This document shows, in pieces, positions 16,487-33,132 of a stretch of DNA of 45,017 bases. Source of the stretch: Paludibacter sp. (GTDB lineage: Bacteria > Bacteroidota > Bacteroidia > Bacteroidales > Paludibacteraceae); contig JARLGX010000016.1 in NCBI GenBank assembly GCA_031292575.1, positions 1 to 45,017 on the forward strand, read 5' to 3'. The notes beneath the pieces are model-generated. The model ran no database searches. It had not been told where the DNA came from and worked only from the letters and a program-made list of their open reading frames with translations. The translations under genes were made by a program, and so were the position numbers. Positions within the stretch are counted from its first letter, which is position 1. Every line of letters begins with the position of its first letter.

Positions 16487-19225
16487 TCAATTAATTGCTT
16501 TATAACCAGAAATCGGCAAATTATAGACTTTACCCGAAATCGTTATTGTACAAGGTTCATCTGATGTGTAATATAAGATATTCTGTTTCTTTTCAACTAT
16601 TACATTCGCAGGCTGCTTAGTTTCGATTTTTACATTTTTCGTTGATAACAAGATTCCATTACCCATAAAAACAACATAATCGCCGTTTTTACTTGTTCCA
16701 ATCACTGAATAAATTGATTGTGAATTCATATCATTATAAACTGCTTTGTCAGTAGGATTTGAATTGGAGAATATATAATCCGTTCTGCCATTCTTTGATT
16801 CCACTTTAATACCCACAAAATCGTTCAATTTTGGTTCTGAATCGAAAAAAGAAACAGAAGCAATATTACTAGGTTCACTTTTAGTACTTGGTTCGAAAAT
16901 AGATACAAAAGGGTGTGTCCATGCTTCGCCATGCTGACGGGCAACGTATGTTAATGTCGGAGTATTTTTTATATTATAAGGCATTCCTGGAGTTCGGCTC
17001 AAACCTTCTGTCATTGGTGATAATGCAGAGAAAATTTCTCGATTTGGTTGGCCTTTCATCCACATATTCATATAAATGTTATCTCCATCGGCTTTGTTTA
17101 TGGTGAAGGTTGCTTTAATGTCTTTATTGGTTACAACACTTTTTTTATTGTATATATACGAATAACCTGTCAAATATCCTCCCGCGAAAGCAAGCTCTTC
17201 GGTAGGCTTAAAGTTCAGATTATCACCATTTGTATCCGTAATAGTCATTTTTTGCCCCAAATTATGATAAAAATAATCGTTCATAATGTCCCCACCTTTT
17301 ACTTTGTGCGAACGGAAAACGTCCACATAATAACCGGTTTTTTCACCAGTTGTAATAATGCTCATCATACGTGTTTGGTTGGAATATGATTCAGGTTCAC
17401 GAAAATACACATCGCAATAGGTTATCCCCTTATAAATTTCATCTTTTATTGTTGAAGCAGGATACGAGCTTTTCAATTCAAAAGCATGGTTACTTTTCAT
17501 AACTGGATAGCTTGAAATGCCATCAACGCAAACGGTGTTGTGCGCAAGAAATTGCGAATAATACTCTGCATAATCAAGTTCAAAATAGCCGCTTCCAATA
17601 CCGGCATCAGGTGCCAACGTGTAACCTTTGCCGTATAATTCCATCGAGATTCCATTGGCGTGTTGATGATTTCCTTCCGACCCATTCATTGAAATCATTA
17701 AACTATTTTTAGGATTCATGCCATTTCGTTGCACAAACCAACTCACTTTTGGTGCCCAGAATGTTGGGGAAACGACATCATCGATCTTAGCGGCCGGTAC
17801 TTTTGGATCGAGCCTTAGAGGTTTATCTGTAAAGAAAGAGATGACTTCAGGTCGAACTGTATTTGCAACTGATTTTGTCATTTCTGCATTTGGCTCAAGC
17901 AGTTTATATAACGCTGTAAATTGTTTTTCCTGCTCTTTTTTTCCATATTTTTGTGCATTGGCTATCATTCGGGCATAAAAGTCGGTACGTGGTTTTTCGG
18001 CATGTGTATCGCCAAAGCCAACATTATTTCCACTTGGAAACAAGTATTGTGGAGTTGCAGCAACTGCTTTAGCTATTATTGGGAACTGAGGTAAAATATC
18101 ATAATTTAAATTTTTATCGAACCAACTAATAAAATTAGCAAAGTCTCCAACAACATTCAAACTATATCCTGGGCATTCCGACCAAATACCAGTATTTTTA
18201 TCAAAGCCATAATCAATCAATTTGGGCAATGACCATTGACGAATACTCGACTTATTGAGAACGTAATCAATATAATACTCCCTTCCTTTCCCATCGCTGA
18301 AGTTTTTATTATCTTCCAAAACCAATCCTATGTTGAGTATAAATGTTGCCTGAATTAAATCCCAGTTATTTTGTGGAACGCCATGGTCAATAATATCATC
18401 TGCCCATTTTTTAAAAGTTGCTGAGTAAATGTCCATTTTTTCTGGTTTGTTTTTTTTTAGATCATAATATAAAAAGTCATATAATGGAATTAACTCATCC
18501 AGAATGTCTTCATGAATCACTTCAAATGAAGATAATCCAACCAGCGTTTGTTGGTGACCATGATTCAGGTCAATAGGCACGTTACGATAATACATGCCGG
18601 TCATATACATATCAAAAACATCACGAGCTAATGATGCATATTTATCATCATCGGTAATCCAATACAAAAAAGCGGCATCACGTGCAATACCCATGATTTG
18701 GCGATTTATCGCCTCAATATTGCGTCCTGTTTCAGCTGGATCAGCCCATTCTAAAGGTTTGTTTGATTTTGAATTATTAATAAAAAATAATCCTTTTGCA
18801 TCATCCATATAAGGTGTAATATCTTCCAGCTTGGGGCGTCCATATATGGTAGTTGTGGCTCTGGAACCTGTATAACGAACTGTTGGAACTGGGGCTTTAA
18901 CACCACCTGCATAGGCAAACTTTTCACCTTTAATAAATATATCTGTCCAATGGGTATTCCAATACATTTGAAGGCGTGAGACTAACCAGTTTGGGTCAGT
19001 TAGATGCTGATCAGCATATTTATCTGTTCTTGTTTTTATCTTTTCAAAAACCTCTTTTGCCCATGCTTCATTTTGAATTAAAAGCTTAACAGAATCTTTC
19101 ATGTTGGCAGAAGTCAAAACTCGCGGATGACCCTGTGGAAATACGGTTGGTAATTGAATTAATGACGTTTTTGCATTTAGAAACGTAATAAAAAATAGCA
19201 AGAAAAGCAAAAGTATTTTTTTCAT
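16487..19225 (-). CDS. Heparinase II/III-family polysaccharide lyase
   Basis: This 912-residue protein has a signal peptide (MKKILLLFLLFFITFLNA). The (alpha/alpha) toroid typical of alginate-lyase/heparinase enzymes occupies about residues 30-420, including PQNNWDLIQAT and WSECPGYSLN. A beta-sandwich heparinase II/III domain follows, with the conserved GNHQHANG (His 520 and 522) and LAHNTVCVDG (about 560-569) motifs. Such enzymes cleave uronic-acid-containing glycans by beta-elimination, leaving an unsaturated uronate. Paired with a GH106 rhamnosidase, the likely substrate carries both rhamnose and uronic acid; this is inference, since polysaccharide-lyase subfamily and specificity cannot be read here. 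It is the first gene of the two-gene operon; no clear TAnnTTTG promoter box was found upstream. Confidence 0.85.
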   Translation of the reverse strand: MKKILLLFLLFFITFLNAKTSLIQLPTVFPQGHPRVLTSANMKDSVKLLIQNEAWAKEVFEKIKTRTDKYADQHLTDPNWLVSRLQMYWNTHWTDIFIKGEKFAYAGGVKAPVPTVRYTGSRATTTIYGRPKLEDITPYMDDAKGLFFINNSKSNKPLEWADPAETGRNIEAINRQIMGIARDAAFLYWITDDDKYASLARDVFDMYMTGMYYRNVPIDLNHGHQQTLVGLSSFEVIHEDILDELIPLYDFLYYDLKKNKPEKMDIYSATFKKWADDIIDHGVPQNNWDLIQATFILNIGLVLEDNKNFSDGKGREYYIDYVLNKSSIRQWSLPKLIDYGFDKNTGIWSECPGYSLNVVGDFANFISWFDKNLNYDILPQFPIIAKAVAATPQYLFPSGNNVGFGDTHAEKPRTDFYARMIANAQKYGKKEQEKQFTALYKLLEPNAEMTKSVANTVRPEVISFFTDKPLRLDPKVPAAKIDDVVSPTFWAPKVSWFVQRNGMNPKNSLMISMNGSEGNHQHANGISMELYGKGYTLAPDAGIGSGYFELDYAEYYSQFLAHNTVCVDGISSYPVMKSNHAFELKSSYPASTIKDEIYKGITYCDVYFREPESYSNQTRMMSIITTGEKTGYYVDVFRSHKVKGGDIMNDYFYHNLGQKMTITDTNGDNLNFKPTEELAFAGGYLTGYSYIYNKKSVVTNKDIKATFTINKADGDNIYMNMWMKGQPNREIFSALSPMTEGLSRTPGMPYNIKNTPTLTYVARQHGEAWTHPFVSIFEPSTKSEPSNIASVSFFDSEPKLNDFVGIKVESKNGRTDYIFSNSNPTDKAVYNDMNSQSIYSVIGTSKNGDYVVFMGNGILLSTKNVKIETKQPANVIVEKKQNILYYTSDEPCTITISGKVYNLPISGYKAIN

Positions 19226-19544
19226 TTTAAATAGTGTGATAAATTAAACCTGATACCGCATTTAAATACGAAAGAAACAAATTAAACACCTAATTTTGAA
19301 CTGACAATCAAATAAAAAAAAATACTTGATAATACATCAAATTGTTTGCGAGTTTGAAACTTATCACTTAATTTTAAACTTACAATGCTATTTATTAGGT
19401 TTCTATGTTTCTTTTGTGGAAAAACGTTATGACGTTTGCAAAATAAAATATTAATTAATGTTATTTTAGTAAACGAACAGTATAATTCGATTATGTCCCT
19501 AGTTCGTAAAAAAGTGGTTATTATATATTCGACGAAATTACTCT
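19226..19544. other. Intergenic junction between lyase operon and integrative element
   Basis: About 320 AT-rich bases carry no convincing gene; the minus-strand frame over 19282-19593 looks like noise. This is where the left end of the integrated element should lie. A short stretch ttttagtaaacga (19464-19476) resembles ttttagtaacga near the integrase (32026-32037). A gcaaaataa at 19438-19446 resembles gcaaaggaa at 31921-31929. Neither is long enough to define an attachment site. Confidence 0.5.
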
Positions 19545-22500
19545 TCAGATACGAACATGAACAAGTTGACTGTTTTCCTGTATATCCATACATTTTTTCA
19601 GCTTTATTTCTGTAAAAGCCGGCCTTTGCTCTTCATTTGTCTGTATTCCTTCTTTGGGTTCTAATTCATGCTTAGGTGTCAGCATTAATTGTATCTTACG
19701 CTCTAATGCTGATAATTCGCTTTTTAGCTTTTTCAATTCCTCTTCTTTTTTCCATGTTCCATTTACTATTTCTTGTAAAGTGGGTATATCTCTTTCAAGC
19801 GTTACATTTTGAACTTTATACTGTTCAATTAGTTTTGGGATACGCTCTAATGCATTCAAAAAGTTTAGAGCAGCCGCTTTTTGGTCAGACATTGCTATCT
19901 GACCATTATTGTAAGTGTACTTGTAAGCCCCTTCGATAAAGAAACGGTTTTGTTTCTCTTCCTGACTATCTTTTTCTGTTATTTCAGTCTTAACAAGGAT
20001 GGAAAATCCATATAATTCACCGATAGGCACATATTCACCACCTGTGGTAGCATTTTTGGCAATCTCCTGTAACTTTGTCCCAACACTCTTCACATCCGTT
20101 GCTTGCAATCCATCTAATCGTAGAGGATTAAGGGAATATCCATCCTGATCGGTTTTGGCATGAGATTGGAATGCAGCATAATCAGAGCTCATTCTGCCAA
20201 TACATTGGTTATTGTGATCAAATATTCGGGTATATTCCTGCAACTTCCATCCTGCGCCATTTTTCGCTTTGTTGAACGACTTGCGCTCACTCTCCAGTGC
20301 TGCAACCTTCTTTTCCAATCGGGATTTATCCAATAAGTCGGTATTACCCGAAAGAATAGCCATATACTCCGAGAAATTCATTCCACTTTTCTCATCCATT
20401 GCTCCCTCATCAATGGTACGTGCACCCATCGCACCGCTTTTAAGTTGCGAAATGAAAGTCTGTTTGCAATGCAGCAGATTGAATTTATAACTGTCAAGCG
20501 ATTTCTCAACGGCGTAGATAACTACATCCACCTGATTGTTTGCGTATAATTTAGCTACCTCATTCCCTTTTCTAACCGCACGACCATCCCGTTGCTGTAG
20601 GTCAGATGGCCGCCACGGTGTATCAAGATGATGTACCGTAACTGCTCGTTTTTGAGCATTTACACCCGTACCAAGCATAGAAGTAGAACCAAAGATAATA
20701 CGAACCTTTCCATCATTCATTGCATCTATGACTGACTTACGGGCTTTTTCTGTTTTACATTCCTGAATAAATCGCACTTCTGAGTGCGGAATACCATGGT
20801 CTTCCACTAACTTACGTTTAATCTCCGAATAAACACTCCACGATCCCGGTTGATAAGTGCCTAAATCAGAAAAGACAAATTGCGTTCCTTTTTGTTCCCC
20901 ATACTTGTGATAGTAGGCGGCAATCGTTTTGGCACAGTGACTCGCCTTGTTGTCGGGGTGATCACTGTATTTCTCGAAATCAATCATACGCAAATCAAGA
21001 GCCATCTTACGGGCATAATCAGTGGCAATAAGCATTTTTGCTTTTTCCTCCGATTCAGAAAGTTTTTCACGTCCAAGAATTGTAGCATCTCCTGTTTGAG
21101 CAAACTCCATTAACTTTTGTATAAAATCTTCCTGTTCGGGTGTAGGAGGTATGTTGTGTAGTATTTCATTCTTATTGGGACGATCCACGCCAACATCTTC
21201 TGCTGTCCGGTAATCCGTGATTTCATTATAAAAGGCTGCCAGTTCCGGCACTTTGATAAAGTAACGGAAACGTTCTTTCTGGATTACCTGATTGGTAACT
21301 GAGAATTCAAAATCGGTGGTTTTCTTGGCAAATATGGCTGCCCATGCGTCGAAACAATTGATGTTCTGCCGCTCCAGTTCCTTTGGTCGAAGGTATTTGA
21401 ATAGCAAATAAAGCTCGGTCAGTGAGTTAGAAATGGTTGTACCCGACAGGTATGTTGCCCCAAGATCTTTTCCTGTTAACTCCTGTATGGTGCGTAAGGC
21501 ATATAGCATATTGAGAGCCTTCTGACTACCATCCTGATTCCCCAATCCGGCTACACGGTCATGTCGGGTATTGAACATGAGATTTTTAAATTGGTGGCTT
21601 TCGTCTACAAATAGATGATCTATTCCCATTTGTTTGAAGTCTACCACGTCATCCGTACGTGAAGTGATGGAGTGCGCTATGGTTTCCAGTTTGACGGAAA
21701 GGTTTATCTTTCGTTTTTCCAATCCTTTAAGCATCGCACGGGATACATCTTTTCCACCGTGACGCAACACTTCCAAGTTCTCTTCCACCGTATCCAGCTC
21801 CGCTTGCAGGATGCGTTGTTGTAGTTCGGGTGACTGTGGTATCTTCCCGAATTGATCGTGCGACATAATCACACAGTCCCAATCGTTGTTCTTGATATTA
21901 TTGAAGAATTTCACACGATTTTGCACAGAAAAATCCTTCTCAGTAGCATAGAGAATCTTGGCGTTTGGATAAGCGGTACGATAGCATTCTGCAATTTCTC
22001 CGATATTGACTTTCAATCCGATAATCATAGGTTTGTGCGCCAATCCCAAACGGTGCATTTCATGTGCTGCAATACACATAATGAGTGTTTTACCCGTACC
22101 GACCTCATGGTCACAAATACCACCACCGTTTTGTTTTAGCATCCATACGCAATCTTTCTGGCTCTTGTACACTTCATTAATATTGTACTTCTTTTCCAGA
22201 GCTTTTAAATCGATGTCGGGAAATGTCTGGTGCGAACCGTCGTAAGAAGGGCGCACGAAGCAGTTGAACTTCCGGTTGTACATATCTGCCAACCTATTTT
22301 GAAACTCCGGCGATTGCTCCTGGAGCCAGTCGGTAAAACCATTTCGTATTTCATCAATCTTACTGTTGGCCAGTTGTATGGCTTCACTGTCCCTAACTTT
22401 AATATCATTGCCGTTTTCGTCTTTCCCGATACTTTTAGAAATATCTGGAACAGTATTGACCAACGCATTTTTCAAAAGATTGATACCATCATAAGTACGG

Positions 22501-25022
22501 TAATATCCCTTTATAGCATATTGGTCCAAGATTTTGGCATTCTTCATTCCGCACTTGATAGAATACTCGTCCATGCTCTCCGAATAACTAATGCTAATAT
22601 CTGCATCAAGCAAGTGCTGGGCATAAGCCGTGTAAATTCCTGTCGGTATCCACCGTTCCCCAAAATTGAAGTCCAGCTCGTCAAAAGTGATAGGGCGTGG
22701 AATAGCTTCCTTAAGTACATTGAGGGCTTCTTTTTCTCGTTCGTCATGCGGGTTCAGCTTCATCCACTCTTCAATTTGCTCTGCCTTTTCTACCACATTA
22801 CCGGCAACAAAACGGTCTTGAATCTCGAAGTTGGCAATCAATGGATTGAAGAAAATACGTCCTTTAAGTTCGTTGATTAGTTCCTCCTGACTATAATCGC
22901 ATAGCGTTTCCATGTAGTCAAGGTTGACTTCCCCATATTTGTTGAGTGATGCGGATAATGCCTCTTCAGGCAAATCGACATGTGTAGTCTCATTTAGGGA
23001 GAAGGCAACGGGATGATCAAAAATATCCGCCTTGATAAATTGCCCGGCTTCAATACGTTCCAACGAAAGAATGTCTCGCCCAGAAGCATCCATCATAATC
23101 AGCTTCACATTCGCTTTGGTGTTCAGAAACCCGTAACGTTGTACAAACTCATCATAGTAGGAGCTCAAGTATTCGCGTTGTTGCTTATTCTCTTCGTGCA
23201 TTTCCGCTTCATGGGCATACAGACGTTGGTAACTGTCACGGATAGAAATATAAAGCTGTGCTTTTTCTTTTTGCTCTTTCGGTAAATTTAGTGGATGAAA
23301 CGTAGCTCCAAACTGGGTCATACTTTTCAGATAACCCACCTGAGAATTACTTTCCTGAACGAGCGAACCTTCCCGGTGGTACGACTCCAGCTTTTGGGAA
23401 TAACTTCGAGGCTGCATGTCCTCCTCTTTCTTGCGCTGTTCTTCTTCCTGCCTCTTTTGCCGTTCAATTTCTGCCAATTGCCTTTTGTGGTCTTCTTCAC
23501 GGGCATCAGATACCGGGTATAAAAGTTTTGCTGTTTGCTGTTCTTTAGTCGTAGCCTGATTATCAGTCTTAGCTTTGGGAAGAGTATCAAATATGGACTG
23601 CTGCCCCGGTATGTTCGATGTTGAAGGGTGTTTACCACGAGGTTGTTTCCCTAACGTTTGCGCTATCCTTTTTTCCTCTTCTGAGAACCCAAATAAATCA
23701 TATAAACTGATTACGGGTGGTTCAATCTCCGGTTTTTCATCAGCCACAGATTTTTTCTTAGCATCCTGTCTGAAATCAACTATCTTGCTTTCGATAGCTT
23801 CGATTGGGTTATTTATTTCTTCGACTTTAGGCGTTATGACCTTTTCAACTACCGATGATTGCATATCAACACCCTGATACCGGGCTTTATCCAGTCTTTG
23901 GGAAAAATCATCAGTAAGCATACGTCTTAAGTCTGTCGCTATACCCGCAACACCTCCCTGATGCAGGTAAATCATCGCAGGTTTACCGTAAGGATCAGTG
24001 CCTAAGGAACGTGAGGTATAAATAATATGCTTACCATCCTGAAAATATTGATTGGTAGTAGTGCCGGATTCGGAGACATAGCCTTTCAAAAAAGTCTGCT
24101 CCATCGCACTGATTTGTTCTTTACCGGAATGTTTCTGTAAAACGATCAAATCGCTGCCAACTTCAGTATTGGCAATTTCGGTAAAGAGATTATTGGGTAA
24201 GCGGATAGCCGACATAAGGTCTGCGTTTTCCATCAATAGCCGTCGCTGTACTTCATATTGAGGAGTATTCATCACACCTTGTGAGGTTATAAAAGCAACA
24301 ACACCTCCGTCTCGCACAGCATCCAATCCTTTTACAAAGAAATAATTATGGATTGCTTTTGTGGATTGCCGACGTGCATTATTTTTACTTCCACTAAAAA
24401 CCGGATCAAAAACCGCCACATCGCCAAAGGGAATGTTGGATGTTGCCACATCAAAATATCCATTAAAAGGGAGTTCTATTTTCTCAAATCCCTCTACACG
24501 TACTTTGTGCTCTGGATAAAGATGAGAAAGCAGTTTGCCTGTCAGCAAATCTTTCTCAAAAGCCATTATTTCCGCATGAGGGGTATGTTGGGCAAAGGAC
24601 GCAATAAAAGCTCCCTGTCCGGCAGATGGATCAAGGAGTCTTTGGGGGATAACTCCATGTTCCTGCAAGGTATCGGCAAGTGCCGATACTATTTCAGACG
24701 GAGTGTAAAATGCAGTAAGGACAGAACTTTTCAGACTGTCCACATACCGTTTATACTCGGTTTCGTTGGCAGAATTGTTGCGAATAATGCGGTGCAATTC
24801 TGCCGTCATCGGGAACAATTCAAGGTCTGATTTCGCCCAGCGGGCAGTATCGGAAAGATTGGTTGCAGGATTGAGAATGCACTTCAATCCTCCGAACCCG
24901 CAGTAGCGACTCAGGATCTCCTTTTCTTCGAAAGTAGCCTGACGCTTTGTGTTGTCCAATTCAAATACTGTCCGTATCGCCTCGATATTGTCCCGGAACT
25001 TCGCTTTTCGATTAAATGCCAT
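19545..25022 (-). CDS. Giant N6-adenine DNA methylase / SNF2-type helicase of conjugative transposons
   Basis: The 1825-residue protein joins two machines. The N-terminal methyltransferase binds AdoMet through [14 protein letters not shown] (about residues 130-143) and has SNIPFGD (about 195-202) as the variant NPPY-type catalytic motif. The C-terminal half is a superfamily 2 helicase with Walker A in [12 protein letters not shown] (about 970), a DESH box in [12 protein letters not shown] (about 1140) and a motif VI-like [14 protein letters not shown] (about 1470-1485). A Glu/Gln/Lys-rich coiled region lies around 500-560. Such proteins are regular companions of topoisomerase III and DUF1896 on Bacteroidales integrative elements and resemble DarB-type anti-restriction proteins. 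DNA modification or protection during transfer is the likely role, not proven. It overlaps the DUF1896 gene by 11 bp. Whether the C-terminus is natural or clipped at the element's end is unclear. Confidence 0.88.
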
Positions 25023-25452
25023 ACGATTCGATGTGGATTGAGATGGCTCCGGTTAGCTCTGTATAAAGCGCATCATATTCAGATGTGTAGGCGAAATCAT
25101 CCGAAAGAGGGTATTTTGAAAAAACTTCTTCTAAAAAGGACAATAATTTAAAGGCAAATTCAGTAGCATCACCTTGCGGTACTTCATCTTCGAATTCATT
25201 CCAGAGAACTTCAATAGTGGTATTGAATCTGGAAAAATGAAGACCTTGTAGCAATGTAGCCATTGCCAATTCTTGTGATCCTTCTGTAGTATATCCGTCT
25301 AATCTGGCTTGTTCGTAAGTATCGGTTGCAAGGTCAGCACGCTCTTCAATGAAATCTGTATCTGAGAGTAAATTGGGGTGGTTTTCGCTAAGGTAGGATA
25401 GGAGATATAATCCGTAATAGGATAATTCTTGAGGTTTATTCTTGTTTTTCAT
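25012..25452 (-). CDS. DUF1896 family protein
   Basis: I choose the ATG at 25452 ([20 protein letters not shown]), giving 146 residues. The longer frame to 25545 would begin inside an inverted repeat and adds an unlikely Gly/Phe-rich stretch. The protein is acidic and mostly helical, with the DUF1896 features [20 protein letters not shown] and the segment around [17 protein letters not shown]. The family occurs almost only on Bacteroidales conjugative transposons between topoisomerase III and the large methylase-helicase, as here; its function is unknown. Its ATG lies 4 nt after the right arm of a long inverted repeat that could hide the ribosome-binding region. Confidence 0.85.
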
Positions 25453-25456
25453 ATTT

Positions 25457-25547
25457 CTGTGGATTTTAGTGGGTGATAATGATAAAAGGGATAAACGGAA
25501 AAAGCACTCCGGGATCCCTCCCGAAGTGCCACCACTAAAATCCACAG
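25457..25547 (-). promoter_or_regulatory. Nested inverted repeat in the DUF1896 leader (possible attenuator and RBS sequestration)
   Basis: CTGTGGATTTTAGTGG (25457-25472) and its exact reverse complement (25532-25547) form a perfect 16-bp inverted repeat. Between them sits a second stem, gcactccggga (25504-25514) with tcccgaagtgc (25519-25529), 11 bp with one mismatch. On the minus-strand transcript that inner hairpin is followed by TTTTT, the signature of an intrinsic terminator. The outer 3' arm ends 4 nt before the DUF1896 ATG. The inner hairpin could therefore end topoisomerase transcripts, and the outer stem could close the start of the next gene. Confidence 0.7.
25498..25529 (-). terminator. 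Intrinsic terminator between topoisomerase III and DUF1896 genes
   Basis: On the minus strand, GCACTTCGGGA-ggga-TCCCGGAGTGC is followed directly by TTTTTCC, giving an 11-bp GC-rich stem with one mismatch and a short T run. It lies about 85 nt after the topoisomerase stop and about 45 nt before the DUF1896 ATG, inside the larger 16-bp inverted repeat. Confidence 0.65.
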
Positions 25548-25600
25548 TAGCTCCGTATTAACTATACAGTTTAAACGATTTGAGACTGAGAATTCAGTGG

Positions 25601-25608
25601 CAAAGATA
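25601..25608 (-). promoter_or_regulatory. Putative -7 promoter box upstream of the DUF1896 gene
   Basis: TATCTTTG on the minus strand matches TAnnTTTG and lies in the gap just after the topoisomerase stop. No TTTG is found at the expected -33 spacing. If it is active, the transcript would begin just before the nested hairpins, which would then act as a leader attenuator. Confidence 0.35.
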
Positions 25609-25612
25609 ACCA

Positions 25613-27700
25613 TTAATTTCTTTTTTTGTTTTTATCGTTCTTTTTTGAATCAGGGAAAATGAATTTGGTTTTTAGCTCTTCATCGAAAGTAATAATAGCA
25701 CTGAAAGCTTTTCCCTGTTTACTGTTGAATCCTTTGATGACTCCTGTTTTTCCATAGGATAACAAATCCAATAGCTCCTGATCAGTCAGTGTTTTTCCGG
25801 CAATCTGTCGAAAAACAGGAAACCCGCAAGACGGATTGTCGCAACGTACCACTTTACTGAAGAACTGCATGCTTCCTGTTTCACATTTGGGACACAGACA
25901 CTCTGTTCCTTTGTGGGTAAACAACTTATCACAGGTCAGCAACTCTGTTGTAATTTGAGTCGTGTAAGCCTCAATCCCCGCACGAAAGCTATCAGCTTGT
26001 ATTTCTCCGCTTTCGATATTAGCCAATGATAATTCCCATTCGCCTGTCATTTCCACGTTTGCGATGCGCATGTCTTTGACAACCGAATACATGGCAAGTC
26101 CTTTCTCTGTTGGAACAAGCGATTTCTTTTGCCTCACCATGTATTCACGTTGAAACAAGGTTTCGATAATGGAAGCACGTGTAGCGGGAGTACCGATACC
26201 ACACTCTTTCATAGATTGGCGCAACTCTTCGTCTTCAGTATCTTTACCTGCCGTTTCCATTGCAGCAAGCAAGGTGGCTTCGGTATGCATAGGTTTGGGC
26301 TTTGTTTGGCCTTCTGTGATAGAGCATGCTTTTATAGGCAGCGTATCACCTTCTTTCCACTCGGGAAGTACAATTTCTTCTTTTTCCTCACCATAAATAG
26401 CCCTCCAACCTTTTTGTTTTATCACAGTGCCCTTTATCGTAAAAGCTATATCGGCGCAGAGTGCCGATACGGAAGTTACATCCTTTACGCACTTGTCAGA
26501 AAAGGCTTCGAGCATACGCCCGATAATCATGTTGTAGATAAGTGCTTCGTCTGATGAAAGATTAATGGGTTTCACACCCGTTATCAATAAAGCGTGGTGA
26601 TCTGTGATTTTTGAATCGTTCACACTGCGGCGAGTTGGTTCTTGCAGACGACTTACGTGATTTTTCCAAGCTGAATTCCCTTTTAGCATAAGCAGTAATG
26701 CTGGAATTTCAGCAAATACATCTTCAGGGATATAGCGGCTACCTGTACGGGGATAGGTGATGAGTTTAGCTTCGTATAATTTTTGAACAATACTCAGTGT
26801 TTTATCCGCTGAGAATCCATGCTTACTATTCGCCTCTTTTTGAAGGGTAGTCAAATCGTATAGTAAGGGAGTTTCCTCTGTAGTTTCTTTGCGTTCCACT
26901 TTCGTAACGGTGATGGTGTTACTACTTTTGACGGCTTGAAAGCATCCTTCGGCATACTGTTTGTCTTTCCATTTCTCCACAGAACTCAATTTCACTACTT
27001 CGTCTTTATCGCGACCATCCGTTGAAACATGCAGTTGCCAGAATGTTTCGGAAACGAACTGTTTGTTTTCCCAATATCGGGCGCACACCATTGCCAGAGT
27101 AGGAGTTTGTACTCTTCCGAGCGAATATGTTCCTCTTCCGGCGGCTATGGTGATGGCTTGTGTGGCATTGAGGCCAACCAGCCAATCCGCTTCGCTACGA
27201 GCTTTAGCGGCATAATACAAGCGGTCGTAGCGATTCCCGCTTTTCAGATTATTCAATCCTTCACGAATGGCTTTGTCGGTGAGTGAATTGATCCAAAGGC
27301 GGTCGAAGGGTGTGGCACATCCTATGTATTCGTAGAGGTAACGAAAGATTAATTCCCCTTCACGTCCGGCATCGGTAGCCACAATAATCTTTTCGCTTTC
27401 ACGAAACAGTTGTGCAATGATTTTAATTTGCGCCACCACATCACTGTCTGGAGTATATCCATTAGCTGTTTTGACCTGACGAGGAATAAGCGTGAATACG
27501 GGTGGAATGATGGGCAGGTTGTCCCGATGGAAACCTTTGAAACCGTATTCGTCAGGCAATGCCGGTGTTACTAAATGTCCGAAAGCCCACGTTACGTGGT
27601 AACCGTTACCAGTTAGGTAACCGGTCTCTCTTTTTGTGGCTCCCACAATTTGAGCAATTTCACGAGCTACGCTCGGCTTTTCTGCAATAATTGTTTTCAT
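25613..27700 (-). CDS. topB: DNA topoisomerase III (type IA), CTnDOT Exc-like
   Basis: The 695-residue protein begins directly with the TOPRIM domain (MKTIIAEKPSVAREIAQIVG; DAGREGELIFR at about residues 115-125). It has the type IA core with the active-site tyrosine in LITYPRTGSRYIP at about residue 315. Near the C-terminus there is a cysteine-containing zinc-binding-like segment (about residues 612-650, with CLCPKC and CDNPSCGF). It relaxes or decatenates DNA by single-strand passage. On CTnDOT the equivalent gene, exc, belongs to the excision operon downstream of xis2c, xis2d and orf3, and the same order is seen here. The sequence CCACTAAAATCCACC ends 15 nt before its ATG and is repeated before the DUF1896 gene. 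Confidence 0.93.
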   Translation of the reverse strand: MKTIIAEKPSVAREIAQIVGATKRETGYLTGNGYHVTWAFGHLVTPALPDEYGFKGFHRDNLPIIPPVFTLIPRQVKTANGYTPDSDVVAQIKIIAQLFRESEKIIVATDAGREGELIFRYLYEYIGCATPFDRLWINSLTDKAIREGLNNLKSGNRYDRLYYAAKARSEADWLVGLNATQAITIAAGRGTYSLGRVQTPTLAMVCARYWENKQFVSETFWQLHVSTDGRDKDEVVKLSSVEKWKDKQYAEGCFQAVKSSNTITVTKVERKETTEETPLLYDLTTLQKEANSKHGFSADKTLSIVQKLYEAKLITYPRTGSRYIPEDVFAEIPALLLMLKGNSAWKNHVSRLQEPTRRSVNDSKITDHHALLITGVKPINLSSDEALIYNMIIGRMLEAFSDKCVKDVTSVSALCADIAFTIKGTVIKQKGWRAIYGEEKEEIVLPEWKEGDTLPIKACSITEGQTKPKPMHTEATLLAAMETAGKDTEDEELRQSMKECGIGTPATRASIIETLFQREYMVRQKKSLVPTEKGLAMYSVVKDMRIANVEMTGEWELSLANIESGEIQADSFRAGIEAYTTQITTELLTCDKLFTHKGTECLCPKCETGSMQFFSKVVRCDNPSCGFPVFRQIAGKTLTDQELLDLLSYGKTGVIKGFNSKQGKAFSAIITFDEELKTKFIFPDSKKNDKNKKRN

Positions 27701-27715
27701 AATGATTTATATTTT

Positions 27716-27730
27716 GGTGGATTTTAGTGG
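27716..27730 (-). repeat. Copy of the CCACTAAAATCCAC motif in the topoisomerase III leader
   Basis: On the minus strand CCACTAAAATCCACC stands 15 nt upstream of the topoisomerase ATG. The same 14-base core stands 4 nt upstream of the DUF1896 ATG (25457-25472), and an inverted copy lies at 25532-25547. Three copies within 2.3 kb, two of them directly before start codons, suggest a shared protein-binding or RNA-pairing site. Confidence 0.6.
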
Positions 27731-27744
27731 TTTGCTTTCAGGCT

Positions 27745-29280
27745 TCAGACTCCTATGCCCTTTGGCTTGTTTTGGCGTTGTTCCTGTTGCTTATTAATGG
27801 GAGCTGTTTGTTCCTGAAGCATTGGTTTCCCGATGTGTTTGGTTGCTTCATTGGTTTTTCCATCAGAATTGACTGCTACCTGTGTCCGGTTTTCCGATGC
27901 CGGTATCACCTGTTGAGCATGGGAAACGTCGGGGTCAGAGCGGTAATATTTCGGTTTGCCTTCTTCCTGATTGAATTTGATATACGCAGTGTAAGGTTGA
28001 CCCTGTTTGTCATGCACCATATCCTTTACGAGAATTGTTTTCCCCGCGGTATAATCGGATTGTTGCTCTGGTGTCAGTGTTACACCTCCAAAAGTTTTAG
28101 GTGCTCGGATATTTCCATTAGCATCCAGCCATTGGAAGCGGTTGTCTTTCGATTGTTGTTTTTCTTCTTGCTTTTCGATTTTCTTTCCTTGAGAGTTTTC
28201 TTGCTTTAACTGTGAACTGTGTGGGACAAACTCAACACCCCTTTGCTCTACATTTACCTGTAAAGTGGCTGTAAATTTCTTTCCATTAGCGAGTATAATC
28301 TCTTTGTTAGAAATTGGCTGCCCGGAACGAAGCGTTTTTATGTCCTGTTCTGTAAGTGCCGTATTACCTATCTTATCGGGAATACGAACTTTATTGACAG
28401 GAATAGCAACTACATTATTGGTCAGGCGGTCGATACTGATATAAGCCGGTACAGTTTTCCCTGTATTTTTATCCGTTAGCTGTGCAATGCGACCCATATT
28501 TCCCGTCTTTTTCAAGTGGTCTTTATCTTCTGCAGAAAAACTGTATCCTTCAAAAGCTTTATCCAATTGAGGCTCTTTGCGAATCAAATGTGGTACGAGC
28601 TGTACATTACCGTTTGGTAGCACCTTGAAAGATAGTCGGGCTTCGGTTTCAAAACGTTCATCTCCGAATTTAGGGGCAACTGTTACAAGAGAGGACTTGC
28701 CGAAATTAAGCATCTTCTTGAGGTCACCCGATGCTTCTAAAGACTGACGGTTTACACCCCATTTTTCTTCCAACTCCGGCCAGTTGATCCGGCTTTCATC
28801 AATAGGTTGATATTCTTTCTTCTGTTTGTCCCCTTGTTGTGCTTCCGGCTGTTGTCCTTTCGCTTCTGATTGTTCCTGCGGTGTTTTTTCTTTTAAGAGA
28901 GTTTCGGTTTGTTCTTGTTTTGCCAGTTTTTCATATTTTTCTGTATCTACAAGATGCGGAACAAGCAGCTCCTTATTTGCTTCAGGATTTTTGAGCAAGT
29001 CTTTGAGCACTGCTAACACATTCTCCACTCCGTCAGCTGTCACGCGATAAAAACCAAAACGTTTCGGCTCTTTGCACTGGCGGAAGAAATTGCTAAAGAA
29101 GTTATCCAGTACATCTCCGTTTCGGTCAAACCTCAAAAAGGCTTGTCCGTTTTCAGGTTTGGTACCCGTAACATTCGGCGTTCCGTCACTTTTCAGTCCG
29201 GCAACCACACCGATTTCTCCTGTTTTCTCATCTCTGACGACGAGAACATCTTTTTCTGTTTCTTTCTTTTTCAGTTCCAT
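27745..29280 (-). CDS. DUF4099/DUF3945 protein, CTnDOT Orf3-like
   Basis: The 511-residue cytosolic protein has three parts. The N-terminal domain (about 1-115) includes FLRFDRNGDVLDNFFSNFFRQ. A Gln/Glu/Lys-rich linker spans about 115-160. Next comes a DUF4099-like segment (INWPELEEKWGVNRQSLEAS, about 164-185) and then repeated DUF3945-like blocks (for example ISNKEIILANGKKFTATLQV and FGGVTLTPEQQSDYTAGKTI). The C-terminus is again Gln-rich. The families are found mainly on Bacteroidales mobile elements next to topoisomerase III, matching the position of orf3 in the CTnDOT excision operon, where it was reported as dispensable. The biochemical function is unknown. Confidence 0.85.
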   Translation of the reverse strand: MELKKKETEKDVLVVRDEKTGEIGVVAGLKSDGTPNVTGTKPENGQAFLRFDRNGDVLDNFFSNFFRQCKEPKRFGFYRVTADGVENVLAVLKDLLKNPEANKELLVPHLVDTEKYEKLAKQEQTETLLKEKTPQEQSEAKGQQPEAQQGDKQKKEYQPIDESRINWPELEEKWGVNRQSLEASGDLKKMLNFGKSSLVTVAPKFGDERFETEARLSFKVLPNGNVQLVPHLIRKEPQLDKAFEGYSFSAEDKDHLKKTGNMGRIAQLTDKNTGKTVPAYISIDRLTNNVVAIPVNKVRIPDKIGNTALTEQDIKTLRSGQPISNKEIILANGKKFTATLQVNVEQRGVEFVPHSSQLKQENSQGKKIEKQEEKQQSKDNRFQWLDANGNIRAPKTFGGVTLTPEQQSDYTAGKTILVKDMVHDKQGQPYTAYIKFNQEEGKPKYYRSDPDVSHAQQVIPASENRTQVAVNSDGKTNEATKHIGKPMLQEQTAPINKQQEQRQNKPKGIGV

Positions 29281-29387
29281 AGGTTGTTGAATTTAATGAT
29301 ATATTGAAATTGGTAGTCGAAAATTTTAGAGATTCCGAGCGGTAATTCTATTGATTCCGAATCTTGTTGAGAGTTGCGGTATTGGCT

Positions 29388-29720
29388 TTACGTTGGAATC
29401 TTCTCCCCGCTATTCTCTTTTCGGAATTCTTTGAAATAACTCTTAATGAATAGTTGTACGTCCGATTCTTTGTAATAGACTTTATGCCAAAGCATGTGGT
29501 AGGTTAAGGCTCCTAAACTGCGGTATCGTTGCAATGAGCGTTTGCTTGTTTGCAGAAGTTGACACAAGTCCTGATTATCTAGTAATCGTTCGCCATCCAG
29601 ATATTTCGCCTCCTTTACATCTTTGCACGCAAGTGTAGCTAATATTTTTTCGTTGCGGTCAAAACGCTCCATGATACGTTTCATCCACAACTCAAAAGTA
29701 TCGGTATCTAATAGGCTCAT
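29388..29720 (-). CDS. Small helix-turn-helix protein, Xis2d-like excision factor
   Basis: This 110-residue protein contains an excisionase/MerR-type helix-turn-helix: LLDNQDLCQLLQTSKRSLQR followed by YRSLGALTYHMLWHKVYYKE. The latter is the wing in which a helix is followed by a shaped beta-turn. It overlaps the preceding HTH gene by the 4-base ATGA, a sign of translational coupling. Position and size match xis2d of CTnDOT, a DNA-bending factor needed for excision together with the integrase. The assignment rests on synteny and fold; direct homology was not testable. Confidence 0.8.
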   Translation of the reverse strand: MSLLDTDTFELWMKRIMERFDRNEKILATLACKDVKEAKYLDGERLLDNQDLCQLLQTSKRSLQRYRSLGALTYHMLWHKVYYKESDVQLFIKSYFKEFRKENSGEKIPT

Positions 29721-30058
29721 AGTGTGGTGGCTTTATGGGTAAGTAAATAGCCTTTTCTGAACTCATCCAAGGTTTGCGGATTGCAGGAGACAATTCTTTC
29801 ACGAATACACTTCTCGATATCAGATAGCCGGTATAAACATTTGCTCCGAATCATGCTATACGAAATAGTACGATCTTTTCGCATACGTTGAAGCGTACGT
29901 GTACTGATTTTAAGCAGATCAGCCAATTCCTCACTGGTCAGCCATATCTCAGGTTCTTGGGTAGGTACATTTTCTTTTTTGAAAACATAGGTTGCAATCC
30001 GGTCAATTTTATTCGCCAAATCTTTGTAAACCTCGTGATCTATTGTTATGATTTCCAT
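29717..30058 (-). CDS. Small helix-turn-helix protein, Xis2c-like excision factor
   Basis: The 113-residue protein has an excisionase-like helix-turn-helix in IWLTSEELADLLKISTRTLQ, followed by RMRKDRTISYSMIRSKCLYR. It is the first gene of the xis2c-xis2d-orf3-exc-like series and overlaps its partner by ATGA. In CTnDOT the corresponding protein binds the attachment region and is essential for excision. An operator-like inverted repeat lies about 55 bp upstream (30112-30133). It is a paralogue of the next gene in fold but clearly different in sequence. Confidence 0.8.
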   Translation of the reverse strand: MEIITIDHEVYKDLANKIDRIATYVFKKENVPTQEPEIWLTSEELADLLKISTRTLQRMRKDRTISYSMIRSKCLYRLSDIEKCIRERIVSCNPQTLDEFRKGYLLTHKATTL

Positions 30059-30111
30059 TTTGCTACTGTTTGATTACATTGCAAAAATGCGGATTGTGGA
30101 TGGGGTGGAAT

Positions 30112-30133
30112 CACAGGTTGTTACCTACCTGTG
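30112..30133. promoter_or_regulatory. Inverted repeat upstream of the xis-like operon
   Basis: CACAGGT (30112-30118) and ACCTGTG (30127-30133) are perfect inverted arms with an 8-nt spacer, and an alternative AGGT-tgtt-ACCT pairing overlaps them. The site lies about 55 bp before the first xis-like gene and fits an operator for one of the small HTH proteins; its function is inferred. Confidence 0.45.
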
Positions 30134-30171
30134 GAAGATTTATTGGAAGAGAGGGGAAATAATTATACAAG

Positions 30172-30222
30172 AAAAGCCGAAAAGTGGCTACTGCTAATGT
30201 AAGTAATCACCTCCCGGCTTTT
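30172..30222 (-). terminator. Possible terminator after the integrase/RhuM-like pair
   Basis: AAAAGCCG (30172-30179) and CGGCTTTT (30215-30222) are perfect 8-bp arms separated by a 35-nt loop, just past the RhuM-like stop. On the minus strand the second arm ends in TTTT. The long loop makes this a weak call. Confidence 0.4.
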
Positions 30223-30243
30223 AATCAATTCAAAATTGGAGTG

Positions 30244-30639
30244 TCAATTCATCATAGTTGTTCCCAATTGAACGATTATTGGAAAATGCTTTTTGCAAGA
30301 AAGGGCGACCTGTTTTGCGACCCATTGTCGAAAATGAATGCATGGATAACTGCCCATTCGATAACTTAAAGCGATAATCACTTCAAGATTGAAATATTCT
30401 ACAATACATTTCTTATCGTTGATTTGGATGCAATGTTCTTCTTGTCTCACCGTTTTCTCCAATAGTCCATTGGATTTAAAGAGTGATTTCAGGCTTGCTT
30501 CCACAGAAGAATTTTGGACATTAAACAAGGATGCTATCTCGTTCTTTGTCATCCATACAGTTCCATCTTCAGACAGTTCAATGTAAATCTGAACATTGTC
30601 TGATTTGATATTTCTGATTGTTATTGTCCCCCGTTTCAT
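30244..30639 (-). CDS. RhuM-like small protein
   Basis: The 131-residue product matches the N-terminal region of RhuM/virulence-associated proteins. It has VWMTKNEIASLFNVQNSSVE (a winged-helix-like segment) followed by YFNLEVIIALSYRMGSYPCI, which mirrors the family motif of a non-trivial Asn-Leu-(X)-Val-Ile-Ala-Leu-X-Tyr-Arg stretch. It is much shorter than full RhuM proteins of about 330 residues and stops soon after that motif. Its start overlaps the integrase stop by ATGA, so the two are translationally coupled. Function is unknown; a DNA-binding accessory of integration is a guess. Confidence 0.7.
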   Translation of the reverse strand: MKRGTITIRNIKSDNVQIYIELSEDGTVWMTKNEIASLFNVQNSSVEASLKSLFKSNGLLEKTVRQEEHCIQINDKKCIVEYFNLEVIIALSYRMGSYPCIHFRQWVAKQVALSCKKHFPIIVQLGTTMMN

Positions 30640-31877
30640 AGTGCTTGTTTTTCTAAGGTTACTTTTTCCATATCATCCAATTTGCTGGAAAGTAATTGCA
30701 TGTCCTTGCTGATTTTTTCATTCGTAATGCGGGCATAAATTTGAGTTGTCTTGATATTCGTATGTCCCAACATTTTTGATACGGTTTCAATGGGTACACC
30801 TTTTGATAGGGTGGTCGTCGTTGCAAAAGTATGACGTGCAATATGAAAGGTAATATTCTTATGAATATCGCATAAATCAGCAATCTCTTTCAGGTAAGAG
30901 TTGAGCTTCTGATTGCTTAACACCGGAAGTAATTGCCCTTTGGGGAGTTTGCCTTCATATTTCTTTAGGATGGTCAATGGGATATTCAACAATGGGACAT
31001 TGACGGGGGTATCAGTTTTCTGACGGTGTGTCATTATCCATTGTTTCCCATCAAAAGAAGTACAAATATTATTTGCTGTTAGTTGTTTTACATCTATGTA
31101 GGAAAGCCCCGTATAGCAAGAAAAAATAAAGACATCACGAACTTGTTCCAAACGGGTGAAACTAAATTTTTTCTCCATAATTGTCTGTATTTCCAGATCC
31201 GTAAGATAACCTCTATCTACACGTTTTGAACGGATTTTATAATTGGAAAACGGATCGTTGAATATCCAACCATTATTTTTAGCAACGATAACGATCATAC
31301 GCAACATTTGCATAAATTTTGCTGTTGTATTTTCATTGCATTTACTAACTGTACGCAAGTAAGTCTCAAAGTCGGTTACAAACTTATAGTTGATTTCCTT
31401 TAAGGCTATATCCGTTATTTTATACTTGGCTTGCATAAACTCTCCCAAACGGCGATAAGCCCGATCGTATTTTGAAAAAGTAGCTTCTGTTTTACTAATG
31501 CCTACCAATTTTCGAGCATCTTCGTTATGGGCTTTGAAAAGTTCTAGAAGGGTGGATTGTTTGGTGGAATAACCCAGAAAGGCATTTCGCACTTTTTCTG
31601 CAGTTACATAGGCTTCATGAGTTTCTATCTCATGATAATGGTTCTTTAAAGACGTGCGAATATCGTCCAGTAGATCGTTTACCTTACGGGATTTCAGACT
31701 ACTTCCTGCGACTTTTCCAAGTCTTACATCCCAAAGTTCAGGCTCTATATCCAATTTAGAACTAAACTGGGATACTTCTCCATTTACTGACAAGCGAGTC
31801 ATAATACTGACTTTACCAGCTTTGTTTACCTGATTCTTTCTCAAATAGAATAGAATCTTAAATGTACTTTTACTCAT
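30636..31877 (-). CDS. Tyrosine integrase, IntDOT-like
   Basis: This 413-residue recombinase has an N-terminal arm-binding domain (about 1-100), a SAM-like core-binding domain (about 105-210) and a C-terminal catalytic domain. Visible catalytic residues are His345 and Arg348 in HIARHTF, His372 in LGHTN and the nucleophile Tyr381 in TTQIYARI. The position normally held by the first catalytic Arg is Ser259 (SCYTGLSYIDV). That is the peculiarity reported for IntDOT of CTnDOT, which has similar length and, as I recall, the same Ser259 and Tyr381 numbering. It should insert and excise the element. It lies at the end of the element facing tRNA-Asp, with inverted and direct repeats 120-170 bp upstream that may be arm or attachment sites. 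Confidence 0.92.
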   Translation of the reverse strand: MSKSTFKILFYLRKNQVNKAGKVSIMTRLSVNGEVSQFSSKLDIEPELWDVRLGKVAGSSLKSRKVNDLLDDIRTSLKNHYHEIETHEAYVTAEKVRNAFLGYSTKQSTLLELFKAHNEDARKLVGISKTEATFSKYDRAYRRLGEFMQAKYKITDIALKEINYKFVTDFETYLRTVSKCNENTTAKFMQMLRMIVIVAKNNGWIFNDPFSNYKIRSKRVDRGYLTDLEIQTIMEKKFSFTRLEQVRDVFIFSCYTGLSYIDVKQLTANNICTSFDGKQWIMTHRQKTDTPVNVPLLNIPLTILKKYEGKLPKGQLLPVLSNQKLNSYLKEIADLCDIHKNITFHIARHTFATTTTLSKGVPIETVSKMLGHTNIKTTQIYARITNEKISKDMQLLSSKLDDMEKVTLEKQAL

Positions 31878-31997
31878 AATACTCTCTTTTTAATTCCAAA
31901 CAATGGATATAATTTCCATCGCAAAGGAATGATTAATGTTTAGTATATGAGCAGACAGTTAATGTACAACAAACGACAAATCAGAGACTTAAATCAG

Positions 31998-32047
31998 AAA
32001 TCGTTACTATTTTTCAGAACTCTTTTTTTAGTAACGATTTAGTAATG
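31998..32047. repeat. Inverted and direct repeats near the integrase (candidate arm-type sites)
   Basis: AAATCGTTACTA (31998-32009) and TAGTAACGATTT (32029-32040) form a perfect 12-bp inverted repeat with a 19-nt spacer. A direct near-copy follows: tttagtaacg (32027-32036) and tttagtaatg (32038-32047). Such clustered sites beside a tyrosine integrase often bind the integrase arm domain or Xis proteins. That use is inferred from location. Confidence 0.5.
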
Positions 32048-32105
32048 GAACTCTGTCATTTTTTGGCTTTTTCTTGACTTTCAGACGTCACCGACAAGAA
32101 ACAGA

Positions 32106-32137
32106 AAATCCCGTAAAACCTTGATTTTACGGGATTT
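32106..32137 (-). terminator. Terminator hairpin downstream of tRNA-Asp
   Basis: AAATCCCGTAAAA (32106-32118) and TTTTACGGGATTT (32125-32137) pair over 13 bp with a 6-nt loop. Read on the minus strand it follows the tRNA by about 36 nt and is followed by TCTGTTTCTTG. It is a strong hairpin in the right place to end the tRNA transcript. Confidence 0.7.
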
Positions 32138-32173
32138 GTCTGAGCTTTTCCACTATTTGTCTCTAGTGTTAAG

Positions 32174-32247
32174 CGGTACGGACGGGACTCGAACCCGCGA
32201 CCTCCGCCGTGACAGGGCGGCATTCTAACCAACTGAACTACCGAACC
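32174..32247 (-). tRNA. tRNA-Asp (anticodon GTC)
   Basis: The minus strand folds into a 74-nt cloverleaf. The anticodon loop is CTGTCAC on a 5-bp CCGCC/GGCGG stem, the T arm is GCGGG-TTCGAGT-CCCGT, the D arm is GTTC/GAAT, and the discriminator base is G. The GTC anticodon is at 32211-32213. CCA is not encoded. The acceptor stem pairs GGTTCGG with CCGTACC and so contains one T4-T69 mismatch, where A69 would be expected; see the finding. The element's integrase lies 3' of this gene. Confidence 0.95.
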
Positions 32248-32282
32248 AGGTTTATTGTCAGACATTATTTTCTAATGCGGTG

Positions 32283-32312
32283 CAAAGATAAGCCAATTTT
32301 TCGTTTCTACAA
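32283..32312 (-). promoter_or_regulatory. Promoter of tRNA-Asp
   Basis: On the minus strand TTG (32310-32312) is followed 19 bp later by TATCTTTG (32283-32290). This matches the Bacteroidota -33/-7 promoter pattern with normal spacing. It lies 36 bp upstream of the mature tRNA 5' end. Confidence 0.75.
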
Positions 32313-32471
32313 TAGCTTTGAACTGTTTTTTTTGAGAATTTTCAAATAGTAATTTTATATAGTTGTTTGTAAACGCAGAAGGAAAATCTATTAAATAAAG
32401 TTCAAAAGACTTCTAAACTCTATATACAAATTCAATTTGAAATGACATCTGCTTAATAATAAATAATTTAA

Positions 32472-32497
32472 AAACCACCTCAAAATTGAAGTGGTTT
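32472..32497 (-). terminator. Terminator after ssb
   Basis: aaaccacctca (32472-32482) and tgaagtggttt (32487-32497) form an 11-bp stem with one mismatch and a 4-nt loop. On the minus strand the stem ends in TTTTT. It begins about 22 bp past the ssb stop. Confidence 0.7.
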
Positions 32498-32518
32498 CTA
32501 TAAATTATATTATAAAAA

Positions 32519-32941
32519 TTAAAATGGTAAATCATCTTCAGCATGAGGTGGGGCTTGTAAACTATCTGTCGGAGGAACTGCAACAGCACTAACGGCTTCA
32601 TTATTTTCGGGTTTTTTGCCTAATAGTTGAATTGAATCAGCGTAAATCTCGGTTGTATAACGTTTTATTCCTTCTTTCTCCCATGACCGAGTTTGAATTT
32701 TTCCTTCGATGTATATTTGACTACCTTTTTTAATGTATTTTTCAGCTAATTCAGCTAATCCTCTCCAGGCTACAATGTTGTGCCACTCCGTTCGTTCGGG
32801 AACCTGAGTTCCATTTTGCATTGTGTAACCTCGTTCTGTGGTTGCTAATGTAAAATTTGCGACAGCCACATTTTTATCCAAATAACGAACCTCAGGATCT
32901 TTCCCTACATTCCCGACTAAAATTACTTTGTTAACAGACAT
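32519..32941 (-). CDS. ssb: Single-stranded DNA-binding protein
   Basis: I use the ATG at 32941 ([20 protein letters not shown]), giving 140 residues. The longer frame to 33079 adds 46 residues not seen in SSB proteins. The OB-fold core spans about residues 1-105, with the typical [13 protein letters not shown] and [20 protein letters not shown] segments. It ends in the acidic tip DDLPF that recruits partner proteins. It coats single-stranded DNA in replication, repair and recombination. It is monocistronic-looking, with its own terminator. Confidence 0.95.
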
Positions 32942-33132
32942 GTTTTTAAATGATTTAATGGTTAATACTTTATTGTTTATCGTCCGTAAAAATAAATATA
33001 TTTTTTGGATTGCAAACAAAAAAACACCAAATAATTTATAATAATATAAAATATAAAGGTTATTAGCACCTACTATCAAATATATACATGCCTAATATTC
33101 AAATAAATAAACAAAATATTGATAAAAAACTC

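Follow-up and report, generated by a model that had tools for sequence, protein, structure and literature searches.

A probable RteR-like small RNA gene behind topB in a Bacteroidales conjugative element, with predicted seed-complementary sites in the leaders of the element's own genes

The 45,017-nucleotide (nt) stretch analysed here (the window; Paludibacter sp., GCA_031292575.1, contig JARLGX010000016.1, positions 1-45,017, forward strand) carries a CTnDOT-type integrative and conjugative element (ICE), as a first-pass annotation made from the letters alone had recognised. On its minus strand topB, a topoisomerase gene of the exc type, is followed by a 160-nt gap and then by DUF1896. We consider it highly probable that this gap holds the gene of an RteR-like, trans-acting small RNA, whose seed pairs with leaders of excision and transfer genes belonging to the element itself. 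Read from sequence, the case is carried by the anatomy of the gene, its relation to RteR, complementary sites at a recurring set of genes, covariation of seed and site from element to element, and a sense-only orientation of the sites.

The first-pass annotation had described the gap as a nested hairpin leader, and most of what it saw there is real. The perfect 16-bp inverted repeat, with 59 nt between its arms, is the window's sole perfect 16-nt repeat whose loop is at most 100 nt, and such a repeat appeared in 0 of 60 first-order Markov simulations. Its 3' arm stops 4 nt upstream of the DUF1896 ATG (25452-25450), and the outer stem covers the DUF1896 start. The enclosed GC-rich stem with its run of T's is the first-listed terminator-like site in 18000-34000, and the promoter-like box stands 4 bases downstream of the topB stop. 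Folding of 25440-25620 gave z = -5.0, with a single structure holding both stems. A chance inverted repeat was rejected on this fold score and the simulations.

The complement of the arm, CCACTAAAATCCAC, also lies just before the topB ATG, where the match runs one base longer. Across the whole genome the exact 14-mer occurs in four places, namely both arms, the topB leader and the traE leader on a second contig, C28. Also on C28, the leaders of traI and traN match other parts of the complement over 14 nt, and those of traG and mobA over 10-11 nt. This recurrence, at topB and among the tra genes of another contig, led us to read the hairpin as most likely a small RNA gene and not a switch.

The window's contig (C36) and C28 are probably two parts of one ICE, as synteny and an att-like repeat suggest. 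The window holds the integrase, helix-turn-helix genes, DUF4099, topB, DUF1896 and the methylase-helicase gene, with no tra gene; the 117 kb fetched from C28 holds rteA, rteB, mob and tra genes and none of the window's set. In a relative (G038:C11) a single contig carries the whole set, in an order that fits C36 and C28 being halves of one element. The last 15 nt of the tRNA-Asp beside the integrase recur on C28 near 228811 (about 8812 of L128), beyond the tra genes and in a fitting orientation, in a scan that covered the fetched stretches. This copy is the probable other end of the ICE, whose length would be about 120 kb were the contig ends joined directly. Gene names follow NCBIfam/Pfam matches of the G038 homologues (TraN, TraG, TraJ, TraK, TraM, MobA and MobB, with DUF4134 as traE and DUF4141 as traI); the letters E and I are our assumption, from gene order. 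The annotation of Bacteroides ovatus NZ_CP081918.1 names a TraI.

The RNA resembles RteR, the small RNA of CTnDOT that Waters and Salyers reportedly described in 2012. The first-pass annotation knew of no description of a switch at this position, and RteR is a known relative there. The rteR model RF04181 matches 25573-25502 over its full length (1-84) up to the terminator, and is the best by bit score, not by E-value, of seven weak Rfam matches in 25400-25700. The window RNA scores below the gathering score of 72 bits and is filed as RteR-like, not as a certified member; at gathering threshold a tRNA alone was recovered from the window. Relatives (L006/L018, L010, L012) score 32-34 bits. The sequence is consistent with an RNA of about 90 nt with its own promoter and intrinsic terminator, encoded directly after topB/exc on the same strand. 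At E <= 0.1, RF04181 matches 20 of 393 genomes in the order, three of them above the cut-off, and at E <= 0.01 it matches 25 of 201 genomes in one family, five of them above. A few weak matches look unrelated; the remainder mostly share the -7 box followed by a CCAC- or CCGC-like stretch, the seed, (A/T)GTGG(T/C)(G/T) and a terminator, mostly with an AGGGA loop. With the relaxed pattern TAnnTT[TC][GA], a box is found in 29 of 30 RNAs, the window's included; the nearest one begins 26-52 nt ahead of the typed core.

The relation also holds in the reverse direction. R1, a model of 17 sub-cut-off RNAs, recovers all six certified RteR loci given to it (L038, L039, L040, L058, L134, L136) at E 6e-8 to 8e-5 in 205 kb, and misses L041 (57.5 bits) and L137 (71.1 bits), both below the Rfam cut-off. 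In annotated plasmid-database records of Bacteroides fragilis, Parabacteroides distasonis (two) and B. ovatus it places the RNA right after topB, on the same strand, and it detects the RNA in the unannotated P. massiliensis OY725995.1 as well; three of these five named records pass the Rfam cut-off. Weaker matches of R1 in the named records (E 0.0016-0.009) fall on the opposite strand; one is in rteC and two coincide with topB leader sites. R1 is sequence-only because RNAalifold returned 0 pairs on alignment A2, apparently owing to MAFFT having put the terminator arms out of register; a second alignment left them so, and the stems carry no covariance-model statistic. Listed one by one, many pairs of the terminator stem are changed in relatives. 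Two further features of the RNA gene may be recorded: a TTCAnnGTCAT-like motif recurs in its 5' part (25596-25560) and in relatives, and at L158 (G556:C1) a short insert splits the gene, with the seed core duplicated on either side.

Seed and site were compared across 29 ICE sequences holding 28 RNAs (the window and C28 share one seed) and 30 gene families. Flanks were taken for 15 of the 28 matches in the order (E <= 0.1), 10 of the 35 in the family survey and five RNAs of the window's group (window, G033, G038, G034, G041). Matches unlike the RNA (e.g. L052, L054-L057, L064), family-survey matches without a locus and further copies of ICEs already included (e.g. L044, L045, L048, L049, L142, L143) were excluded; G435 and G425b, with 0 and 3 reference-gene matches around the RNA, were dropped before scoring, and the gene-poor G630 and G638 were retained. 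Each RNA contributed a 26-nt seed, families were found with G038 proteins as queries, and leaders from -110 to +15 were scored for ungapped complementarity to their own and to swapped seeds. Start codons were initially those of the longest open reading frame, which misplaced some leaders (G118a traE, G218 traI), and were later re-chosen by family length.

Seven families, topB, DUF1896, DUF4099, mobA, traE, traI and traN, clearly fit the seed of their own ICE better than swapped seeds. Mean own and swapped scores were 13.2 and 8.7 for traN (n = 18), 12.1 and 8.7 for traE (n = 22), 11.7 and 8.2 for topB (n = 26), 10.9 and 8.4 for DUF1896 (n = 19), 10.3 and 8.1 for mobA (n = 23) and 8.3 and 7.0 for DUF4099 (n = 26), all with a permutation p of 0.0005, the floor; for traI they were 9.3 and 8.1 (n = 21, p 0.005). 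In the 23 other families (including int, rteA, rteB, mobB, mobC, traF, traG, traJ, traM and traO) own and swapped scores were about equal, with an excess of at most about 0.4, and the methylase-helicase family (methSNF2) had no sites. The same seven families lead with re-chosen start codons, traE reaching 12.5 and DUF1896 11.8. The seven had been chosen on a first batch, and ten later ICEs, some sharing seed types already in that batch (e.g. G638, G516, G586, G558, G486), served as a held-out check; own and swapped means there were 12.3 and 8.4 for traN, 10.8 and 8.7 for traE, 9.4 and 7.0 for topB, 10.5 and 8.0 for DUF1896, 11.0 and 8.5 for both mobA and traI, 8.9 and 6.8 for DUF4099, and 5.6 and 5.6 for controls. 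With seeds collapsed to nine types, p was 0.0002 for topB, DUF1896, traE and traN, 0.0008 for mobA and 0.008 for DUF4099, and the own type was the best of its row in 8 of 9 cases for topB, 7 of 8 for traN, 6 of 9 for traE, 3 of 7 for DUF1896, 3 of 9 each for mobA and DUF4099, and 2 of 9 for traI.

At a score of at least 10 the complement is found in 75 of 136 leaders of six families (DUF1896 excluded) and the same-sense seed in none. Among the DUF1896 leaders 13 of 19 carry the complement and 12 of 19 the same sense, the latter because the RNA gene itself lies there, and in control leaders the figures are 6 and 0 of 424. Exact 13-mer complements outside the RNA gene number 54, of which 43 fall in the seven leader sets. 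Leader sites at several genes covary with the seed, the pattern sought for a base-pairing small RNA with several targets. Examples of matching changes are topB in G038 (ACCACTAAAATCCACAGTAA) and G409b (ACCACTAAAAAATCAATGTTA), traN in G041 (CACCACTAAAAAAATCCAATAGTA, one mismatch), and traE in G409a (ACCACAAAAAATCTCAATT) and G444 (AACCACTAAAATTTCAA).

The gene set differs between lineages. In certified-RteR ICEs (G118a, G118b, G444, G516) sites are present at traE and traN, and in some cases at DUF4099 or topB; the window's group adds sites at mobA, traI and DUF1896. Three certified loci, L038 (G118a), L039 (G444) and L058 (G118b), have no DUF1896 gene following the RNA and no 3' arm within the 90 nt shown, and their ICEs still carry complementary sites in the traE and traN leaders. 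P. distasonis NZ_OY725747.1 (RteR at 86.6 bits) has perfect complements at traE (17 nt, -83 to -66) and traN (18 nt, -22 to -4) and a 22-nt site with one mismatch at DUF4099, with no site at topB, mobA or traI. In B. ovatus NZ_CP081918.1 (91.6 bits) the traE (26 nt) and traN (18 nt) sites are imperfect and fit the P. distasonis seed equally well; mobC carries a further site, and topB and mobA carry none. The tet(Q) ICE of B. fragilis NZ_OR675140.1 has DUF1896 and an RNA that scores below the cut-off; there are sites at its topB, mobA, traE and traI, and DUF1896 and traN have shorter, 9-nt ones. In genomes with two or three such ICEs the own seed beats that of the co-resident in 15 of 16 listed leaders, a comparison covering only genes with an own score of at least 9, a choice that favours the own seed. 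As a separate observation, the DUF1896-leader site of L156 (G486:C392), CACTAAATCCATTGTAAAAA, is a better fit to the seed of another ICE type, G118c, than to its own, which may mark a mosaic element or a lagging site.

Several results weigh against a trans-acting RteR-like RNA with such targets. The window RNA is far under the Rfam cut-off (21.5 versus 72 bits), its own DUF4099 leader has no site (score 7), and assignment of the tra contig to the same element rests on synteny and the att-like repeat. The certified-RteR ICEs scored have no sites at mobA or traI, G590 lacks them in every one of the seven families present in it, G084b has none at traE, traN, mobA or traI, and the traN leader of G118b, the exception among co-resident pairs, fits the other ICE's seed better. 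Among the 23 other families the lowest p is that of traK (0.03, 6.4 versus 6.0; 0.02-0.03 across both start-codon runs). With nine seed types traI falls to p 0.054, and the pooled controls reach p 0.038 on a difference of 0.1 (6.0 versus 5.9). No differing seed fits better in 16 of 26 topB, 12 of 22 traE, 10 of 18 traN, 7 of 19 DUF1896, 7 of 23 mobA, 5 of 26 DUF4099 and 4 of 21 traI leaders; the own seed is not always the best fit because the seeds share a core. Finally, predicted folds place part of the seed in pairs inside the RNA, most clearly in L012 and the certified L038 and L039.

The first-pass annotation had proposed a switch in cis, in which one RNA either terminates early or masks the DUF1896 start and so couples or uncouples DUF1896 and the methylase-helicase gene from topB. 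Both stems exist and fold well, and by own-versus-swapped scores pairing of the outer stem is maintained across DUF1896-bearing relatives while both sides change, with a duplex energy of -21.5 kcal/mol for own and -15.4 for swapped partners. The two stems are nested, however, within the same predicted structure, and mutually exclusive folds were not found. The same complement precedes topB, traE, traI, traN and mobA, a long way from the RNA gene; certified RteR loci that lack DUF1896 retain promoter, seed and terminator; and the distance from the -7 box to the DUF1896 ATG, found in 19 of 23 loci, varies there from 127 to 237 nt. We therefore rejected a leader switch as the main function, given the nested stems and the distant sites, and regard a cis switch as an improbable account of the gap. 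Seed fit before topB, traE, traN and mobA is about as good as before DUF1896, so that the outer 3' arm appears as one of a set of sites. The annotation's interpretation is thus partly supported; of the downstream genes it named, DUF1896 and the SNF2/helicase domains stood by Pfam, while the methylase (Eco57I) match stayed under the curated cut-off.

A DNA operator, bound by RteB/RteC or one of the helix-turn-helix proteins and resembling the RNA secondarily, seems more doubtful still. Dispersed sites before one system's genes would look alike and their specificity could co-evolve with a regulator, but the motif keeps a single orientation relative to the gene (reversed in 0 of the 136 leaders), 63 of 88 sites scoring at least 10 end no more than 25 nt from the ATG, several of these lie within the tra operon, where promoters are not expected, and the 20 RNA-bearing sequences of the first batch each hold a single copy of the core, in the RNA gene. 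Least probable is that the sites are chance matches or functionless relics of duplicated leaders: related ICEs do share seed and leaders, and the covariation counts, which are not tree-based, are not independent, but the effect survives the collapse to nine seed types and recurs in held-out ICEs, and it is at most a trace in the 23 other families of these elements.

We propose a model for the trans-acting RNA in which transcription, duplex formation and the direction and mechanism of the effect are inferred from these patterns. The RNA would be transcribed from its own -7-type promoter and end at the inner hairpin. Its seed, made up of the outer stem's 5' arm and the AGUGGU core that follows, would pair with mRNA leaders of topB (exc) and DUF1896 in the window and with those of traE, traI and traN, and more weakly of mobA, elsewhere in the element. 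Such pairing would most likely prevent translation and leave the message open to decay, keeping the ICE quiet. The closeness of most sites to the start codon argues for blocked ribosome entry; the traE sites, 60-105 nt upstream, may act through message decay or a standby site. Bacteroidetes mRNAs are described, in the passages of PMC7366714, as relying on adenines near the start instead of a Shine-Dalgarno sequence. The 16-bp inverted repeat would then be a cis copy of one seed-site pair, and read-through transcripts could close the DUF1896 start themselves. It is possible that the 5' part of the RNA, by pairing with part of the seed, masks it until a target is met.

The features discussed above are collected in Table 1.

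Table 1. Positions in the window of the predicted small RNA gene, its sites and neighbouring features
Feature	Position	Strand	Basis
-7-like promoter box of the small RNA, TATCTTTG, just past the topB stop codon	25601-25608	-	sequence
Predicted RteR-like small RNA, about 95-98 nt	25499-25596	-	5' end estimated from -7 box, 3' end from T run; weak RF04181 match, fold z -4.0, reciprocal model
Seed (5' arm of outer stem), CTGTGGATTTTAGTGG	25532-25547	-	complementary sites covary with seed
Putative intrinsic terminator stem-loop, T run to 25499, loop AGGGA as in most relatives	25503-25530	-	terminator prediction; many pairs differ among relatives
Seed-complementary site (3' arm) in DUF1896 leader	25457-25472	-	inverted-repeat search and leader scoring
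Seed-complementary site in topB leader, ACCACTAAAATCCAC (15 nt)	27717-27731	-	sequence match
DUF1896 gene (candidate cis target)	25012-25452	-	PF08989, E 3e-54
topB/exc-type topoisomerase gene (candidate target), upstream neighbour of the small RNA	25613-27700	-	PF01131
Large methylase-helicase (SNF2) gene, overlapping the end of DUF1896	19545-25022	-	SNF2/helicase domains by Pfam; no sites in its family
Integrase of the element	30636-31877	-	PF00589
tRNA-Asp, 3' end the likely attachment site	32173-32247	-	15-nt copy at G000:C28, about 228811

Two neighbours of this system deserve separate mention. A search centred on DUF1896 alone is misleading, several DUF1896 loci having different hairpins or none; a second DUF1896 lineage (L016, L009, and C30 of the Paludibacter genome) has a quite different hairpin, of the TTCCGTTATGCAG type, before the gene. 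The rteC coding sequence contains CAAGTGCC(A/G)CCACTA, which can pair with the RNA's AGTGG(T/C)GGCAC along 12-13 complementary nt, at L029:813 (G000:C28, about 260810) and in G308, G425a, G486, G579 and G584. The A/G at a proline codon tracks the T/C of the RNA in these six, not in G451 and G218, and the complement was not seen in the other ten rteC-like genes scored. This is possibly a further target, or else a constraint on the protein.

RteR was known already; the analysis adds predicted target sites and extends the RNA to Paludibacter-type Bacteroidales, beyond the members in Rfam. According to the passages of PMC7366714, tra expression is reported to become discoordinate through RteR, and an effect on tra is mentioned in those of PMC9299015; it appears in the reference lists of PMC10994844 and PMC4020798 and in a figure legend of PMC5729914. 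The passages of these five papers name no target sites for RteR, and the original papers may hold such a prediction. A literature search combining Bacteroides, conjugative transposon, small RNA and traE found nothing.

In a broader context, it is tempting to speculate that an RteR-type RNA heads a private antisense code in each Bacteroidales ICE, an idea to which we give roughly even chances. Repeated sites would let one RNA check excision (topB, DUF4099), nicking (mobA) and mating-pair formation (traE, traI, traN), with seed and sites drifting together and co-resident ICEs mostly insulated, apart from occasional cross-talk. Such an addressing code could keep co-resident ICEs apart. The predicted RNA also suggests an RNA layer in the control of gene transfer, resistance transfer included, among gut bacteria. 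The list of predicted sites is short and comes with natural, matched differences of seed and site, which makes the mechanism directly testable.

Trans-encoded base-pairing small RNAs act on several mRNAs elsewhere, as the Hfq-dependent small RNAs of enterobacteria do. The RteR-like RNA would share with these a single seed, several leaders and sites mostly at the translation start, and it differs in that its recognised targets lie within one mobile element and track the seed from element to element; we know of no chaperone for it. Attenuators and leader switches likewise place a hairpin and T run before a gene, whereas mutually exclusive folds are not predicted at the topB-DUF1896 gap. FinP, an antisense RNA acting on traJ according to the passages of PMC9299015, and other RNA regulators of conjugation also control transfer genes through complementarity; the RteR-like RNA, in contrast to FinP, has several dispersed sites. 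From RteR of CTnDOT the window RNA differs in its low score, in its seed, in the DUF1896 gene with a cis site that follows it and is absent at the certified loci scored, and in the mobA and traI sites of its group. The two agree in their place just after topB/exc, a length of about 90 nt, the -7 promoter, a 3' terminator mostly with an AGGGA loop and the GUGGUU/AGUGGU core, and certified RteR loci too carry seed-complementary sites in their traE and traN leaders.
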